From the NCBI GenBank assembly GCA_003279565.1, contig QCHN01000011.1:1-42084 (forward strand): 42,084 bases of DNA. The letters run 5' to 3'. Below, in pieces: positions 3,191-29,877 of the stretch (its first letter is position 1; every line of letters starts with the position of its first letter). The notes under the pieces were generated by a model. It was not told the DNA's origin. It saw only the letters and a list, made by a program, of their open reading frames with translations, and searched no databases. A program made the translations under genes and the position numbers. The stretch comes from Prochlorococcus sp. AG-402-C09 (GTDB taxonomy: Bacteria; Cyanobacteriota; Cyanobacteriia; PCC-6307; Cyanobiaceae).

Positions 3191-3331
3191 ATGATTGGGA
3201 TTGTGGAATTATTTCCATTTAGGTTTTTTTATGACAATGAAAATTTAATGGAAAGTGCTTTTAAAGGAATCAGCTCTATAGGTGATTATTTTTGGAGTAC
3301 TTTCTTTGTTTGGTTTTTACAACTAAGTTGA
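3191..3331 (+). CDS. aromatic-rich small ORF, 46 aa
   Basis: An ATG-started frame giving MIGIVELFPFRFFYDNENL, then a C-terminal stretch rich in Trp and Phe that could associate with membrane. The frame extends upstream only to a TTG at 3137. No Shine-Dalgarno site and no family; it could be chance. Confidence 0.3.
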   Translation: MIGIVELFPFRFFYDNENLMESAFKGISSIGDYFWSTFFVWFLQLS

Positions 3332-3460
3332 AGTGAAAGAGATTCTGAATCATAAGTTTAACTAATTCTCGAAAACCCCACCTTTAAACTGTCACGTGTC
3401 TGAGTATTTGTTCTTAGTTTTGTAGTAACTTTTTTCACTTACCTGCGAGTACAAGGTCAA

Positions 3461-3577
3461 ATGGCTCAACGAATTAACGTTGCTTTAAATTCAATCCCAT
3501 CAGGATGCAGAGATTTAGCTGAATTTGCTTTCTTCTGCGGAGTTGGTTTTACTTTTGGGAGCTTAGGTCTTATATGA
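3461..3577 (+). CDS. small membrane peptide, 38 aa
   Basis: MAQRINVALNSIPSGCRDL is followed by a hydrophobic, Gly/Phe-rich segment at residues about 21-38 that runs to the C-terminus. It has two Cys, at 16 and 26. Its TGA overlaps the next ATG (3574) in an ATGA arrangement. Unknown function; compact size and coupling support a real gene. Confidence 0.55.
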   Translation: MAQRINVALNSIPSGCRDLAEFAFFCGVGFTFGSLGLI

Positions 3578-3690
3578 CTTCAACTAATAAAGCAATATCC
3601 GAAACAACAATCAAAAAGTTTGTTCCTTATTTTGTAGTTGGAAAACTTGCCGTCTTTACTGTATTTCTTGTTTACATGATGCAGGGATAA
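3574..3690 (+). CDS. single-span membrane peptide, 38 aa
   Basis: Overlaps the preceding gene by 4 bases. A polar N-terminus (MTSTNKAISETTIKKF) is followed by one membrane span at residues about 18-36 ending in YMMQG. Probably co-translated with the gene at 3461. Family not recognised. Confidence 0.55.
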   Translation: MTSTNKAISETTIKKFVPYFVVGKLAVFTVFLVYMMQG

Positions 3691-4128: not shown

Positions 4129-4332
4129 ATGGAGATCAAAGAATTTAATAATCATGGATTAGATAACCTGGGTATTCATTGGGTCCAATATCTTTTAGTG
4201 ACTTTAATTTCTTTATTGATATTTCTCTTAGGAGTAGATAATGCGGTTCCTAGCTTCCATCATTTTGTTTTATCGCTGTTATTCCAGCTTCAATGCGGTG
4301 GCTTAAATTGTAATGGTGTGAAAATTAATTAG
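4129..4332 (+). CDS. single-span membrane protein, 67 aa
   Basis: A polar N-terminus (MEIKEFNNHGLDNLGIHW) is followed by a strong hydrophobic span at residues about 21-36 and a second weakly hydrophobic part with two Cys near the end. No family recognised. The C-terminal third is less convincing than the span, so the true end could differ if a frameshift is present. Confidence 0.45.
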   Translation: MEIKEFNNHGLDNLGIHWVQYLLVTLISLLIFLLGVDNAVPSFHHFVLSLLFQLQCGGLNCNGVKIN

Positions 4333-4541
4333 TTATAGTTTTTTAAATGAAACAGCAGTAGCCAATTAGAAATTTATAAAGTTAATCTGATAAACCCTTT
4401 AGTGACATTTTGATCAATGATGAGTACCTCTTTTATATATGAATGAACTAGTTACTAACTTTCTTATTTGGAAGTTGGACAACACGACTTGATTTGAGAT
4501 ATTAACTTTAAAATTATGACTGCATTATGGAACGCTAATTA

Positions 4542-16912: not shown

Positions 16913-17245
16913 ATGGAAGATCAAATTATTGCTGCCGAAAAAGCTAAATCTATTTCAGCCGAAATATGCCAATGGTCAGGAGCTGTATTTGGTATTTTGT
17001 TTGGGCTAGGTTTCTTTTTGGCTGAAGTTCAAAAGAATGACTTAAAATCTCTACCTTGGTGGAAGCCAATTTCTGCCCTTATTGCTGGGGCAGCTGTGTC
17101 TGCACATGGTAGCAATGTTATTAACAATAAAAGAACTGCTGAATTAACTGCTTTGTTAGTGAGATCAACTAATAGTGCGTCTGAGTTGCCAATATCACAG
17201 ACATCTGAATATTCAGATCTTTTGGAAGATTCTGATAACAAATGA
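16913..17245 (+). CDS. two-span membrane protein, 110 aa
   Basis: A charged start (MEDQIIAAEKAKSISAEICQW) precedes span 1 at about residues 22-38 (GAVFGILFGLGFFLAEV) and span 2 at about 49-66 (PISALIAGAAVSAHGSNV). A polar Ser/Thr-rich tail of about 40 residues ends it. Probably both ends are cytoplasmic. The opposite-strand frame at 17029-17241 is a shadow. Unknown function. Confidence 0.68.
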   Translation: MEDQIIAAEKAKSISAEICQWSGAVFGILFGLGFFLAEVQKNDLKSLPWWKPISALIAGAAVSAHGSNVINNKRTAELTALLVRSTNSASELPISQTSEYSDLLEDSDNK

Positions 17246-17395: not shown

Positions 17396-17584
17396 CTATT
17401 GAATTACTCTTTGTGGTTGAACTTGATAAGAACAGATACCAAATTGTAAGCACTCCATTTCTTCATCGCTTTTTAATTGTAGCTTTGAAAAATTTAGTCT
17501 TTCAGAAAGTTGAGTAAGAATAAGTCGAGCTGCATTCTCAGCAGCTTCAGTAGTCAATTGAGCAAAGCGATTTCCGTAGGACAT
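17396..17584 (-). CDS. ECLQFGIC microprotein, 62 aa, copy 1
   Basis: Taken from ATG 17584 (MSYGNRFAQL); the frame is open to a GTG at 17602. A helical N-terminal 40 residues rich in Ala, Leu and Glu, then EEMECLQFGICSYQVQPQR. The octapeptide ECLQFGIC (residues 44-51) recurs in the proteins at 17991-18158 and 19485-19667, each time 11-15 residues from the C-terminus, while the N-terminal parts differ. The two Cys six residues apart could form a disulfide, bind metal or be modified. Followed by a membrane peptide gene 10 bases on. Function unknown. Confidence 0.68.
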   Translation of the reverse strand: MSYGNRFAQLTTEAAENAARLILTQLSERLNFSKLQLKSDEEMECLQFGICSYQVQPQRVIQ

Positions 17585-17837
17585 ATTAGGTCGAAGATCC
17601 ACATTTTTTTTTCTACTCCTATTTGGCGGATGACACCTAGAGCATAAACACTTAACTATTTAGGCTGTTTCGATGATTAATAGTTAGTCTCTGATGATTT
17701 TTACATTTTGAGAAACTTATTTCTCTGGAAAATCTGTGAAGATTTTAAGTATGGCATACAAAATTATAATAGTTTTAGAGATTGGTTTTTTTTAGATTAT
17801 TAGGTTTAATAGAGTGAAAATTAAGTGAACTTGATTA

Positions 17838-17978
17838 ATGAGTGGTGATAACCTACTTTCTCATTTGCCAGTAAGATTTTATTCTGATGAAATGACTGAA
17901 ACTAAAAGGATCGTTTATCTAGAACGAAAATTTCAAGAATTAGATGAATTTATTGAAAATATTCCTGAAGTGGCATAG
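17838..17978 (+). CDS. MSGDNLL microprotein, 46 aa, copy 1
   Basis: Begins MSGDNLLSHLPVRFYSDEMT and continues as a charged helix (LERKFQELDEFIENI). The first 24 residues match the minus-strand 56-aa protein at 37654-37824: MSGDNLL, then a short variable part, (K/R)FYS(D/E)E and TETK. Within the motif the codons differ mostly at synonymous positions. Soluble and acidic, perhaps coiled-coil in its second half. Convergent with the ECLQFGIC gene at 17991. Confidence 0.62.
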   Translation: MSGDNLLSHLPVRFYSDEMTETKRIVYLERKFQELDEFIENIPEVA

Positions 17979-17990
17979 TGCTGGATTTCT

Positions 17991-18158
17991 TTATCCAAAA
18001 TAAAACTCTTCTGGTCTTGGTGATTGTGCTTGCACAGCACAAATCCCAAACTGTAAGCATTCTTGGACCTCATCGTTTTGCTGTCTTTCAGTTTGAATAT
18101 TAGTGAGGAATAATTCTCGGATGCTTTGATTTAAAGGTTTGAATGGATTAAAGGACAT
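17991..18158 (-). CDS. ECLQFGIC microprotein, 55 aa, copy 2
   Basis: MSFNPFKPLNQSIRELFLTN, a Gln-rich middle, then EVQECLQFGICAVQAQSPRP and a short aromatic end (EEFYFG). ECLQFGIC is at residues 33-40. Against copy 1 the eight codons differ at four bases, all synonymous. The start ATG has an AT-rich leader without a clear Shine-Dalgarno site. Unknown function. Confidence 0.66.
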   Translation of the reverse strand: MSFNPFKPLNQSIRELFLTNIQTERQQNDEVQECLQFGICAVQAQSPRPEEFYFG

Positions 18159-18186
18159 AATTAAGCTCCCTAAATACCCTTTTACT

Positions 18187-18222
18187 TTTTACTCTATTCG
18201 GGTAGCAAAAACTAGAGAGTAA
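18187..18222. promoter_or_regulatory. inverted repeat upstream of the 18317 operon
   Basis: TTTTTACTCT and AGAGAGTAAA flank about 18 bases containing GGGTAG; ACTCT can pair with AGAGT. It lies about 100 bases before the three-gene unit starting at 18317 and 30 bases beyond the divergent start at 18158, so it may serve either gene. No regulator is assigned. Confidence 0.3.
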
Positions 18223-18316
18223 ACCCCAAAGTATTTATACGCCTTTACAGGGTGTGAAGAGGCCGTTTTAAGTATTAAATGAGCTGCCTAGATTTAACAT
18301 TATCTAAAGTTGCCGA

Positions 18317-18781
18317 ATGATAAAAACAATAATAAGAGCAATGTATTCTGCTTTTATTTCTATTGTCTTAATCTCAATTATTCTGGCTGGCTGGACTTGT
18401 TTCGCTTTTATTTCCCAACCCACAAATTCTGGTGAGATAATTAATGTGATACAACATATGTATGAAAGTCAGAAGTCAGTATTCATAGACGTCGTTGATC
18501 TTTCGAAATTACTAATAAAGGATACAAGTGAAAAAATAGCTAGTGAAGATAATAATCTTTTAACAGAATCAGAATTTCTGACAGATCAAGAAGACAAGTA
18601 TCTATTTGATGAGTCGTCAATTCCAGAAGACAATGGTGATAATCCTCTCGGGATAGTGATTGAACCATCCTTACCTGAAGTGATCGAAGAAAATTCGCCT
18701 GAAATTAGTTTAGAACCATTGGAAAGTGATCATAGTGGGGTTTCTTTTAATGAAATGGAAACAGGAATGGACATCAATTAA
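18317..18781 (+). CDS. membrane-anchored acidic protein, 154 aa
   Basis: MIKTIIRAMYSAFISIVLIS begins a single span that ends near residue 33. The remaining 120 residues are strongly acidic and low in complexity (Glu, Asp, Ser, Pro), predicted disordered, with no Cys beyond residue 30. It probably exposes a negatively charged tail on one membrane face. It resembles in architecture, but not clearly in sequence, the 126-aa protein at 36537-36917. First gene of a unit with the two exported proteins that follow. Confidence 0.66.
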   Translation: MIKTIIRAMYSAFISIVLISIILAGWTCFAFISQPTNSGEIINVIQHMYESQKSVFIDVVDLSKLLIKDTSEKIASEDNNLLTESEFLTDQEDKYLFDESSIPEDNGDNPLGIVIEPSLPEVIEENSPEISLEPLESDHSGVSFNEMETGMDIN

Positions 18782-18839
18782 GTCTGTTAAACGAATTTTT
18801 TTAAATGTCTTTAATATTGCTTTACTTAAGATTTTTCTT

Positions 18840-18998
18840 ATGAATAAAATTCTACCTTTAGTATTTGCCCTTTCTTTTACGACAGCTCCTGTTTTGGCAT
18901 GGGGTGAAGGTGGATGCTCTTTATCTAAGAAGAACAAAGCAATTCAAGATGAGATGGTTGTTGAGCAAGTTGACAGCTCCGATTCTACCGATATGTAA
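18840..18998 (+). CDS. exported microprotein, 52 aa
   Basis: From ATG 18840: MNKILPLVFALSFTTAPVLA is a signal peptide with an Ala-x-Ala site (VLA). The mature peptide of about 32 residues starts WGEGGCSLSKKNKAI and ends with an acidic Ser/Asp tail. One Cys. Upstream in-frame codons from 18726 overlap the previous gene and are not used. The next gene starts 10 bases after its stop, so they are co-transcribed. Confidence 0.62.
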   Translation: MNKILPLVFALSFTTAPVLAWGEGGCSLSKKNKAIQDEMVVEQVDSSDSTDM

Positions 18999-19008
18999 TT
19001 TCAAGAAA

Positions 19009-19260
19009 ATGAAAAACTCATTGCTAATTCGAATTGTTTTTTTCTCTCTTGCTTTTCTTCTGATTCTTTTTCCTGCGCCTGTTAATGCAGATGAAATAGA
19101 TTCATCGCTTATAAAAACAGATCCTACTGAAACCGTTCAAGCTCCTAAGAAAATGACAGAAAAGCAAATGAACGATCTTTTTGGCGAAGATCCGTATTTA
19201 GGCCAAACTTCTTATCTTCAGTCTCCGGATGGCTTCAGTCAAAGAGAAAAATCAAAATAA
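19009..19260 (+). CDS. exported protein, 83 aa
   Basis: From ATG 19009: MKNSLLIRIVFFSLAFLLIL, then FPAPVNA as the probable signal cleavage region. The mature part is acidic and Pro/Thr-containing (EKQMNDLFGEDPYLGQ, then polar residues to SK). No Cys in the mature part. It closes the unit 18317-19260. The longer frame upstream to 18865 overlaps the preceding gene and lacks a coherent signal, so this start is chosen. Confidence 0.62.
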   Translation: MKNSLLIRIVFFSLAFLLILFPAPVNADEIDSSLIKTDPTETVQAPKKMTEKQMNDLFGEDPYLGQTSYLQSPDGFSQREKSK

Positions 19261-19352
19261 TGGAACTTTTATTATCGAGAAAAGCCAAAGTAAAGTGTGG
19301 TAAAAAAAATTTCCTCGTATTAATAAAACAAGTCTTTCAAGAAAAGAGGTAG
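19260..19352 (+). CDS. basic microprotein, 30 aa, coupled
   Basis: MELLLSRKAKVKCGKKNFLV and a basic end. The ATG shares its A with the TAA of the preceding gene (TAATG), a coupling arrangement seen repeatedly in this window. Very basic; no relatives recognised. Confidence 0.35.
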   Translation: MELLLSRKAKVKCGKKNFLVLIKQVFQEKR

Positions 19353-19484
19353 TTGATTCTTCTACAATTTTCAATATGAATTGAATTATTTTTCTTTAAC
19401 TGTATAAATATTTGAGTGTTCTTCCCCATAGATTTCTTAAACCAATATGAGTAGAAATTAAACAGGTTGTTTAGATAACTAACC

Positions 19485-19667
19485 ATGCCATTCTCAAAGC
19501 AATTATTTCGAAATTTTTCTGGGGTTTCTAATCAAGGAAATGAAATGTCTGAATTGTTTTCTAATTACAAGCCAAAATATGATGATGATGTGATGGAGTG
19601 CTTGCAATTTGGTATCTGTTCTACGCGTCCAGCCCCCCCAAAAGAAATACCCTATTTTCACTTTTGA
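19485..19667 (+). CDS. ECLQFGIC microprotein, 60 aa, copy 3
   Basis: MPFSKQLFRNFSGVSNQGNE, a polar middle, KYDDDVMECLQFGICSTRPA and a Pro-rich aromatic end. ECLQFGIC spans residues 38-45. Its eight codons differ from copy 1 at a single synonymous base. The N-terminus has the same loose outline as copy 2 (MxFxxx, basic, an LF pair). It stands alone, in the opposite orientation to copies 1 and 2. Function unknown; possibilities include a metal site, a disulfide-looped peptide or a modified core peptide. Confidence 0.68.
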   Translation: MPFSKQLFRNFSGVSNQGNEMSELFSNYKPKYDDDVMECLQFGICSTRPAPPKEIPYFHF

Positions 19668-21331: not shown

Positions 21332-23026
21332 TCATGAGGAACAGCTGTAATGGGAAATCCCACCGGCTCCAAAGAATTTCTTGGGCTTGAGTCTGTCGTA
21401 TTTTTTCTGTACCTCTAATGATTGTTCCTCGTAAGGTTTGTCTAAAACTGCTTGTAGTTCCATTATGAGACCATAGTCGCCTTTCTCTGCCATTTCGTAT
21501 GCTGGTGTGATGAGCCATTCCCTCCATGTGTATTTTGGATTAATGTGTTTCATTTTTGCTGATATTTCATTTTGATCACTGTTGTTAATTACGTGCTCCC
21601 GCCATCTTTGTAGCCAACTGATCCATTTGGTCTCAATCTCTTCTGAAATTGGTAGATAGAAACTATCTTTTAAGTCCTTAAGTTTTTTGGGGATACTTGA
21701 AAGTTTTCGGAAAAAGATTGTGTAGTCGACCTTTGTGTGAACCATGAGCTGCAGCATTTCATTTACTAGAGGTGCGTCATAGGTGACTAAGCCTAGTTTC
21801 TTTGTCCACATCTTCTCCATTTTCTGATTCATTACCGTAGTAAATCCATCGCGGATGATATCTAGCCTGTCCAGTGCCTTTGCGTTGCCGGTAATTAGAG
21901 GTCGAATCGCCCCCCAAAACATTTGATAATTGGCTTCGGCAGCAACTTGTTGGTTAAAGAACGAAAAATGTTCACCACCTCCTGTCCAAGGTTGGAATCT
22001 GGGATCGAATAGTTCGCAAAAACCGAATGGACCGTAATCGAGGGTAAAACCTCCTGCAGCGCAGTTGTCACTATTGAAATTGCCTTGGCAGTAGCCAATC
22101 CGCATCCAATTAGCTACTAATGATGTGAGTCGTTCTCGGAATGAATTTGCGAGCTCAACGACTTGGTCGCTAAAGCTAAGGGTCGGATCAATTTCCTCCT
22201 TGTAATTTCTTACGATTAAGTGCTTCACAATCATCTCGAGCTCTTTCATTGCATCTTGATGCTCATTGTTGCGTACTCGACGTGCAAAGAGTTCTATCTG
22301 ACCTACCCGTAAAAATGATGGCGCGACTCGTGTTGAGATTGCAGCTGGTGTTTCTACCAATATGTCTGGATCGATTGAATTGGAGTCTTTTGTATACCAA
22401 GGCCTGCGGACTGTTTCAGATTTAGAGACATATAGTGTGAGAGATCGTGATGTTGGTACTCCGAGTGATTGCATATATTCCTGTGCTAAAAACTCACGAA
22501 CGCTAGAACGAAGCACTGCGCGTCCATCAGCTCCTCTGCAGTATGGTGTTGGCCCTCCTCCTTTAAGTTGCATTTCCCATCTTTTGCCATTAAAAAGACC
22601 TTCAAATACAGAAATAGCTCTCCCATCTCCATAGCCGTTACCTGTCCCAAATGGACACTGCTGAGTATATTCAGTTCCATAGATAGATAGTGCGTAACCG
22701 GTAGCCCAACCAAATGGTCGCATCTGTGTTGTCGCAACACTTATGTCGCCGGAGAATAGACGACGAAAAAGCTCATCTAGAGCAAGTTCCTGACTCAAGC
22801 CTAACTCGTTAAATAATATTTTACTGTGAGCGATATATTCTGGCTTTGGAATTGCTGTTGGAGTGACAGGTACATAGTGACCAGAAAAGACCTCTCTTGT
22901 TAGGTGGTCGTCACCATCATCTGTTGCCTGAGGATCAGGTTCGAGAGAATCCAAGAATGAGTAGTCAGCTTGTTTTGCAAACTCAGAGAAAGTTCTAGTT
23001 GTCTGCCTAGCTTTAGTTATGCTCAT
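21332..23026 (-). CDS. selO: protein adenylyltransferase SelO (UPF0061/YdiU), 564 aa
   Basis: SelO is a pseudokinase-fold enzyme that transfers AMP from ATP to Ser, Thr or Tyr of target proteins and is linked to redox stress. Visible landmarks: [20 protein letters not shown] (about residues 151-170, the nucleotide loop with Lys 155), GNFNSDN (about 315-321) and LDYGPFGF (about 329-336), which carry the catalytic Asp and metal-binding Asn/Asp of the family. The C-terminus SCSS has Cys 562 at the place of the selenocysteine of eukaryotic SelO. Full length. GC is visibly higher than the neighbours (hand counts of four 60-base lines inside: 33, 42, 47 and 48%), so transfer is possible. It stands alone on the minus strand. 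Confidence 0.96.
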
Positions 23027-29796: not shown

Positions 29797-29877
29797 GTAG
29801 CAACCGCTACCAAAACGTTCAACTCGTTACATAGCGAGCCGCATCTCGATTTAAGCCAAGGAACGGGGACTTAAATC
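29797..29877 (+). promoter_or_regulatory. multi-hairpin 5' leader before the DUF4278 gene
   Basis: Three successive stems: GTAGC with GCTAC (29797-29810, loop AACC), CTCG with CGAG (29823-29838), and GATTTAAG with CTTAAATC (29848-29855 and 29870-29877, 8 bp, loop with AAGGAACGGGGA). The block is more GC-rich than surrounding intergenic DNA and ends 16 bases before the ATG at 29894, so it lies in the 5' UTR. A purine-rich GGAG follows at 29885-29888 as ribosome site. Possibly a regulatory RNA; class not known to me. Confidence 0.5.

Follow-up and report, generated by a model that had tools for sequence, protein, structure and literature searches.

Introduction

The precursors of ribosomally synthesized and post-translationally modified peptides (RiPPs) usually combine a conserved leader with a variable core, and the prochlorosins are small, multi-copy genes of the marine picocyanobacteria whose products have cysteines near the C-terminus. 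A further small protein of the cyanobacteria is CP12 (Pfam PF02672), a redox-controlled linker of GAPDH and PRK, whose redox function is ascribed to pairs of cysteines, and which is characterized by an AWD_VEE core (PMC3906501). Regulatory proteins are said to be very scarce in the genus Prochlorococcus, in whose strain MED4 the non-coding RNA Yfr16 is located in genomic island 2 (PMC2518516). The present analysis deals with a family of microproteins that share a nearly fixed C-terminal tag, ECLQFGIC, and with the DNA element found upstream of their genes. Three of the members are clustered in a 42,084-nucleotide stretch of Prochlorococcus sp. AG-402-C09 (contig QCHN01000011.1, assembly GCA_003279565.1), which is referred to here, at its full length, as the window.

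This is almost certainly a real microprotein family, and it is apparently undescribed so far, given that a literature search on its motif strings found no description of it, and that the string MSCGNP led to an unrelated materials paper. Strong purifying selection acts on the tag, and the paralogs are probably co-regulated through the shared element.

The microprotein family and its tag

The translated frames of the window include copy 1, of 62 amino acids (aa) (MSYGNRFAQLTTEAAENAARLILTQLSERL...EMECLQFGICSYQVQPQRVIQ; 17396..17584, minus strand), copy 2, of 55 aa (MSFNPFKPLNQ...VQECLQFGICAVQAQSPRPEEFYFG; 17991..18158, minus strand), and copy 3, of 60 aa (MPFSKQLFRNF...KYDDDVMECLQFGICSTRPAPPKEIPYFHF; 19485..19667, plus strand). 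The codons of the tag, located by a degenerate 24-base pattern, lie at 17432..17455 (minus), 18039..18062 (minus), and 19596..19619 (plus), and are followed by 11, 15, and 15 residues, respectively. These translations agree with the first-pass annotation of the window, which had recognized three small frames sharing the octapeptide near the C-terminus, and its codon counts are also reproduced, with one synonymous difference between copies 1 and 3, and four between copies 1 and 2. The same pattern has four matches in the genome of 1.63 Mb, where the reversed control has none, and the fourth match, copy 4 (MSCGNPFKHVIEDVKETF...DYENECLQFGICSMDY), lies outside the window on contig C3 (47713-47898, plus strand), which means that the "three-copy" family is correct for the window, but too small for the genome. 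With the pattern loosened to C-[LF]-x-F-G-x-C, two places are found in addition to the four copies. The remainder of each protein had also been described as different, which is true in degree, with 21-32% identity between the window copies when the motif is masked, although the copies nonetheless align over their full length as a single family. The earlier account had included neither copy 4, nor this homology beyond the motif, nor the upstream element that the copies share.

The members are approximately 49-65 aa long, and consist of a variable, partly helical N-terminal part and a nearly fixed tag with the consensus D-x-x-x-E-C-[LM]-Q-F-G-[I/N/F]-C. In an alignment of 31 representatives (A2), which were picked from the motif-bearing hits, the first methionine, the aspartate four residues before the glutamate, the glutamate itself, the first cysteine, the Q, F, and G, and the last cysteine are invariant in all the rows. 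The variants that retain both cysteines are ECMQFGIC, ECLQFGNC, ECLQFGFC, and ECLHFGFC, while the ends MSCGNP and YFHF or FFHY recur in many, but not all, members. One high-light member, for example, in locus L176, reads MTCGNPIKHKLQKVVDNWLDMFSVEKKLSDDQMECMQFGICDYAPRQVEEIPFFHY. The AlphaFold2 model of copy 1 has a long helix at residues 12-48, with a mean predicted local distance difference test score (pLDDT) of 72.6 and a predicted template modelling score (pTM) of 0.37, whereas copy 3 is mostly a low-confidence chain (mean pLDDT 60.7, pTM 0.25). No significant match was found for the three window copies in PHROGs, nor for the family profile in a sequence search of the PDB.

Selection and origin of the paralogs

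The dN/dS ratio is 0.009 in the motif and 0.279 in the rest of copy 1 (24 distinct sequences), 0.000 and 0.435 in copy 2 (22 distinct sequences), 0.008 and 0.214 in copy 3 (28 distinct sequences), and 0.034 and 0.083 in copy 4 (12 sequences), while the motif of copy 5 (six sequences) does not vary, although these sets were gathered by a pattern that permits only L/M and I/N changes in the motif, which lowers its dN. When the same-genus loci were queried with the motif masked, EC[LM]QFGIC was present in all the frames recovered for copy 1 (26/26), copy 3 (29/29), and copy 4 (7/7), and ECLQFGIC in 23 of the 25 frames of copy 2, the other two being decayed. The loci of this masked check had been chosen for carrying at least one motif-bearing copy, and the decayed copies of L071 and L072 were missed by the masked query. 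The tag is, then, under strong purifying selection, and the claim of the first-pass annotation that the peptide is selected, rather than the DNA, is borne out by the ratios of copies 1-3 (0-0.01 in the motif, 0.21-0.44 elsewhere), with which the masked check agrees.

All 75 of the copy-1 to copy-3 members that have a paralog in the same locus are nearer to another genome's copy than to that paralog, with a median identity, with the motif masked, of 0.93 across genomes versus 0.28 to the paralog. The motif codons, in turn, differ at 1.74 of the 24 bases between orthologs, versus 2.2-5.2 between the paralogs of one genome. It follows that the paralogs are old, and that it is the peptide that has been selected. 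Recent DNA duplication, which the first-pass annotation had named as an explanation that would undo its own, is ruled out by these 75 members, as is gene conversion.

Distribution in Prochlorococcus

The exact pattern is present in 31 of the 41 genomes of the genus, with no match for the control, and the empty reversed controls, in the own genome and in the 41 genomes, rule out a chance origin of the motif. The search of further genomes for the motif in small frames, which had been suggested as a check, was successful with both patterns and profiles. Of 400 family-level genomes, 91 were matched by a 22-column profile at E up to 0.001, and a full-length profile recovered members in 95, representing five of the 59 genera, at E up to 0.05. 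In the own genus, the full-length profile finds a member in 39 of the 41 genomes, the other two being 54-56% complete, and one genome (G032) has seven matches at E up to 0.05. Among the genomes listed for this profile, those of 2.2-3.0 Mb have no member (a further 285 genomes that lack a match fall outside the list).

A scan of the GTDB collection with the pattern returned 54 loci, of which 41 are titled Prochlorococcus, and approximately six chance matches would be expected, a figure that is estimated rather than computed. By eye, the flanks of the other 13 loci bear no similarity to the family, and a spread beyond Prochlorococcus is rejected on this basis. The family is specific to Prochlorococcus, and is found both in NATL-like (low-light) and in MED4-like (high-light) genomes, as we take these clades to be.

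The shared upstream element

An element of approximately 60 bp, with the rough consensus ATAAATACTTNRGKGTTT..TCYCYATAGAT..TT....RGAGTAGAAAT, was detected by footprinting before the start codons of copies 1-4 (24, 23, 28, and 11 sequences, respectively), and it stands close to the presumed promoter of most of the low-light (NATL-like) paralogs. A model of this element (R1), built from 22 training rows, among them the own-genome leaders of copy 3, copy 4, and the MTRKRDKIWTAIIATKQWF gene, places it at 17605..17662 on the minus strand for copy 1 (35.2 bits, E 2.2e-8), at 18186..18240 on the minus strand for copy 2 (45.7 bits, E 1.2e-11), and at 19402..19462 on the plus strand for copy 3 (56.2 bits, E 6.2e-15), ending 20, 27, and 22 nt before the respective ATG, with E values calculated over the whole genome. 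At E up to 5, there are 16 matches in the own genome, five of which score 35-56 bits, while the sixth falls to 14.9 bits. Of the strong sites, four precede family genes, and the fifth precedes a divergent, tag-less microprotein of 56 aa, MTRKRDKIWTAIIATKQWF... (MTRKRDKIW type; locus L060, G000 C3, about 3330-3606, minus strand), which has no match in Pfam. Genes of the MTRKRDKIW type with the element are also seen in L276, L278, L283, L287, and L288, often divergent from copy 4.

All 41 genomes of the genus have a match to the element at E up to 0.1, some of them weak (the best in G034 has an E of 0.08). In the same-genus loci, which were picked for their family genes and some of which trained the model, there are 89 sites of at least 30 bits among 98 matches (the nine at 15.8-29.7 bits were dropped), and 81 of these 89 are followed, after 1-121 nt, by an in-frame ATG that belongs to an open reading frame (ORF) of the family. 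The other eight comprise four before MTRKRDKIW-type genes, three before decayed copies (L049, L059, and L071), and one that runs off the end of a contig.

Used alone, the element led to a family gene with a diverged motif, ECLHFGFC (L279), and also to MSCGNPFVH...ECLQFGFC (L288), a gene that the full-length profile matched too (G010). Further sites precede decayed copies in L276 and L286, and a 44-aa ORF, MPATRSYRSNG..., in L277, while those of L280, L282, L284, and L285 are not followed by a family gene, and have either a long ORF or no ORF, or at any rate none of the family, after them. In 40 genomes outside the own genus, chosen by the author, about half of them for carrying the family, there are seven sites of at least 25 bits (genera g11 and g28), all immediately before family genes by their coordinates, and the remaining matches score 14.6-23 bits.

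No RNA structure was predicted for the element, and it is therefore read as promoter DNA together with the early leader. A generic scan for promoters and terminators revealed no clear excess, and the sole Rfam match in the cluster was a chance-level small nucleolar RNA (E 3.7).

Loci of the high-light genomes

In the high-light loci, the arrangement of the element is different from one locus to another. A distance of 158-161 nt separates the match in L174 and L180 from an MTNLGLELL gene downstream, which itself precedes an ECMQFGIC gene, and whose product is transmembrane (TM)-like, by eye, with two cysteines near its end, while in L178, the match lies 154 nt before the family gene itself. On the other strand of L178, a match of 14.6 bits lies 30 nt before MKLFNQFN...FWEKECREHPTNQNCLIYCD, a microprotein with a CP12-like tail, NPTNQNCLIYCD. 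Microproteins with this tail, or similar ones, stand beside the high-light family locus in L172 (4477-4695, plus), L178 (3973-4155, minus), L180 (3689-3874, plus), and others. A TM-like microprotein with two cysteines near its end, MTNLGLELLILTVLL..., is encoded just upstream of the family gene in L171 (4231-4392, plus strand), and has orthologs in other high-light loci. Small ORFs that resemble high-light-inducible proteins, by eye, are also found beside several of the high-light copies.

On the 3' side of the high-light element, there is a hairpin, and then a terminator-like GAGGGC...GCCCTCTTATTTTTT. A small RNA is likely to be encoded downstream of the element, and the candidates, predicted from the element, the hairpin, and the terminator-like stem, lie at about 4214-4360 (plus) in L174 and about 3178-3040 (minus) in L172, and also in L178 and L180. 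Rfam has no match at these sites in the four loci.

Genome G187, in which L171 is located, has an Rfam Yfr11-family match at 657391-657529, versus the printed complement 657392..657529 of Yfr16, and this genome is identified as MED4 because the coordinates agree within one base. Its family member is found at 657929-658111 (plus strand), about 400 nt from Yfr16.

Possible function

The reading favoured here, which is put forward tentatively, and by analogy, is that the family consists of co-regulated docking adaptors with a redox-sensitive tag, similar to CP12 in action, without being members of CP12. The docking part of this reading was drawn from the combination of a tag that is fixed and a remainder that varies with the existence of several paralogs and of an element common to them, which it fits, while the redox gating is suggested by the behaviour of CP12 with its own cysteine pairs. 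In this scheme, the mostly disordered or helical microproteins would be the adaptors, and the tag is probably a short docking motif, which would serve one shared partner, probably an enzyme or a complex related to photosynthesis. The cysteine pair, with its distance of six residues, might possibly form a redox gate, alternating between a disulfide loop and a dithiol, and the differing N-terminal parts would then confer different timing or second partners, with the shared element switching on the whole set together. A broader version, in which a co-regulated disordered set acts on a common target, the element also ties in a small RNA and the microproteins with CP12-like tails, and the flow of carbon or electrons is retuned by the redox state with hardly any regulatory proteins involved, is distinctly unlikely as it stands.

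A number of observations weigh against the docking-adaptor reading. Common promoters can be inherited along with duplicated genes, and the LLI copy-5 type (MSCGNPFNH, six sequences) is found without the element. The element was detected at E up to 0.01 in only five of the ten high-light loci (L172, L174, L175, L178, and L180), with weak scores of 14.6-23 bits, and in L171 of MED4 it scores 9.1 bits (E 0.49). In L172 and L175, no ORF of at least 30 aa starts within 230 nt after the element, and a second conserved stretch, TAGGTATT...ACTCTTGATT...GATACTAAATAA, which is different from the element, precedes the operon. The tag itself has exceptions, mostly in decayed copies, including ECLQFCIC in the decayed copy 2 of L072, a start-less remnant of copy 1 in L071, ECIQFGIS in L179, with the second cysteine lost and no start, KCLQFGNC in L276, and, in L286, a copy that lacks its second cysteine. 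The 31 members have no significant match in Pfam or NCBIfam (weak hits only), and none of them matches PF02672 at E up to 1. The full-length profile finds no member in G050, although this genome is nearly complete, in one contig, and from a genus with members elsewhere, and the system is thus dispensable, given that some genomes have no member.

Metal handling is a different use to which the cysteines could be put, with the tag pair, joined in some members by the MSCGNP cysteine and the histidine near the C-terminus, binding copper, zinc, or an Fe-S cluster in small chaperones or buffers. Both tag cysteines are present in the 31 representatives, and several members add MSCGNP and an end in ...YFHF or ...FFHY, but the window copies lack the MSCGNP cysteine, and copies 1 and 2 the histidine end, which leaves few ligands. 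The Q, F, and G are also as invariant as the cysteines in A2, and a bare metal site needs none of them, although ECLHFGFC (L279) provides one exception for the Q. On balance, this explanation is unlikely.

The MED4 locus brings to mind effectors encoded in variable regions, which would be made under phage attack or light stress to shut off a host process. The MED4 member lies close to Yfr16, an RNA assigned to genomic island 2, and its coordinates put it within a few kb of PMM0684-PMM0686, which are named as phage-induced (PMC2518516; coordinates from PMC1242208), and the neighbouring ORFs that look like high-light-inducible proteins point in the same direction. This is a rather improbable role, however, given that PADLOC has no match for the four own-genome copies and a single weak one for the MED4 copy (E 0.019), that none of the 16 stretches of viral contigs matching the pattern was confirmed as a relative, and that a search of phage records with copy 1 as the only query found no relative (best E 3).

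The element might also be no more than a leftover of duplication that exerts no joint control, and the tag might likewise be left over from the ancestral gene, since paralogs arise by the copying of a gene together with its promoter, and three of them are neighbours in the window locus. The coding parts have fallen to the low identities given above outside the tag, however, while the element and the tag are still recognizable, and the element also precedes the tag-less MTRKRDKIW-type microprotein, all of which makes this explanation quite improbable.

A strongly conserved, multi-copy family with an element of its own, present in both clades, would be a concrete piece of the missing regulation of Prochlorococcus, and the element doubles as a DNA search model that points to short genes.

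Genomic surroundings

The membrane-peptide and exported-protein neighbours reported by the first-pass annotation are small ORFs conserved at this locus, and none of the four scanned matches Pfam. This supposed neighbourhood gives no functional evidence for the family. Between 13055 and 20300, the window has only three ORFs of at least 110 aa, and many conserved shorter ones. One of the small ORFs (17838-17978, plus strand, MSGDNL...) begins, by eye, in a similar way to a small ORF of L173, and a conserved 110-aa ORF (16913-17245, plus strand) has a weak match to SIR2 in PADLOC (E 0.046), which is probably due to chance, and no Pfam match.

A SelO protein adenylyltransferase (21332-23026, minus strand; Pfam SelO, E 5.7e-68) adjoins the cluster in all 21 of the same-genus cluster loci compared, which may simply reflect synteny. 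The window also contains a glutamine-II riboswitch (29813-29875, plus strand, 65.8 bits), and the Cyano-1 RNA is found near family loci of both clades, at 1541-1606 in L060, 1010-1077 in L171, and 930-997 in L172, in each case on the plus strand.

Comparison with known systems

The family shares its small size, its multiple copies, and its cysteines near the C-terminus with the prochlorosins and other RiPP precursors, but the idea that its members are modified peptides or signals, with the tag as the core, is very unlikely, because a fixed C-terminal tag behind a variable N-terminal part reverses the usual arrangement of such precursors, and no modifying enzyme was recognized among the 14 window proteins scanned, which are part of the window ORFs. 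The Yfr11/Yfr16 loci (Rfam RF02363) resemble the family in their position, in that they adjoin the family operon of two high-light loci, L171 of MED4 and L172 (PMC2518516), but they are RNA genes, distinct from the shared element, and no Yfr11 match was found by Rfam at the element sites in the six loci scanned.

In contrast with CP12, the AWD_VEE core is seen, by eye, in no row of A2, copies 1-3 have no N-terminal cysteine pair, and the C-x5-C spacing, which is present in all 31 rows (chosen from motif hits), is unlike that of CP12, with no NP between the cysteines. CP12 itself is represented by one separate gene over the Pfam cut-off in each of the six genomes searched, and two additional matches fall short of the cut-off, one of them next to the family locus of G292, which is presumably MIT9515. 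One of the neighbours with a CP12-like tail also falls under the cut-off (E 0.053, 14.7 bits, versus 22.7), and a cysteine-pair tail of this shape occurs in 12 distinct ORFs, one of the MTNLGLELL kind, among 2772 short frames of the loci listed.

What appears to be new here is a clade-restricted family of microproteins, which has an upstream element of its own and the members of which may be small regulatory proteins. Like CP12, they are small, cyanobacterial, and equipped with a C-terminal pair of cysteines, and they are probably, as CP12 is, disordered or helical.

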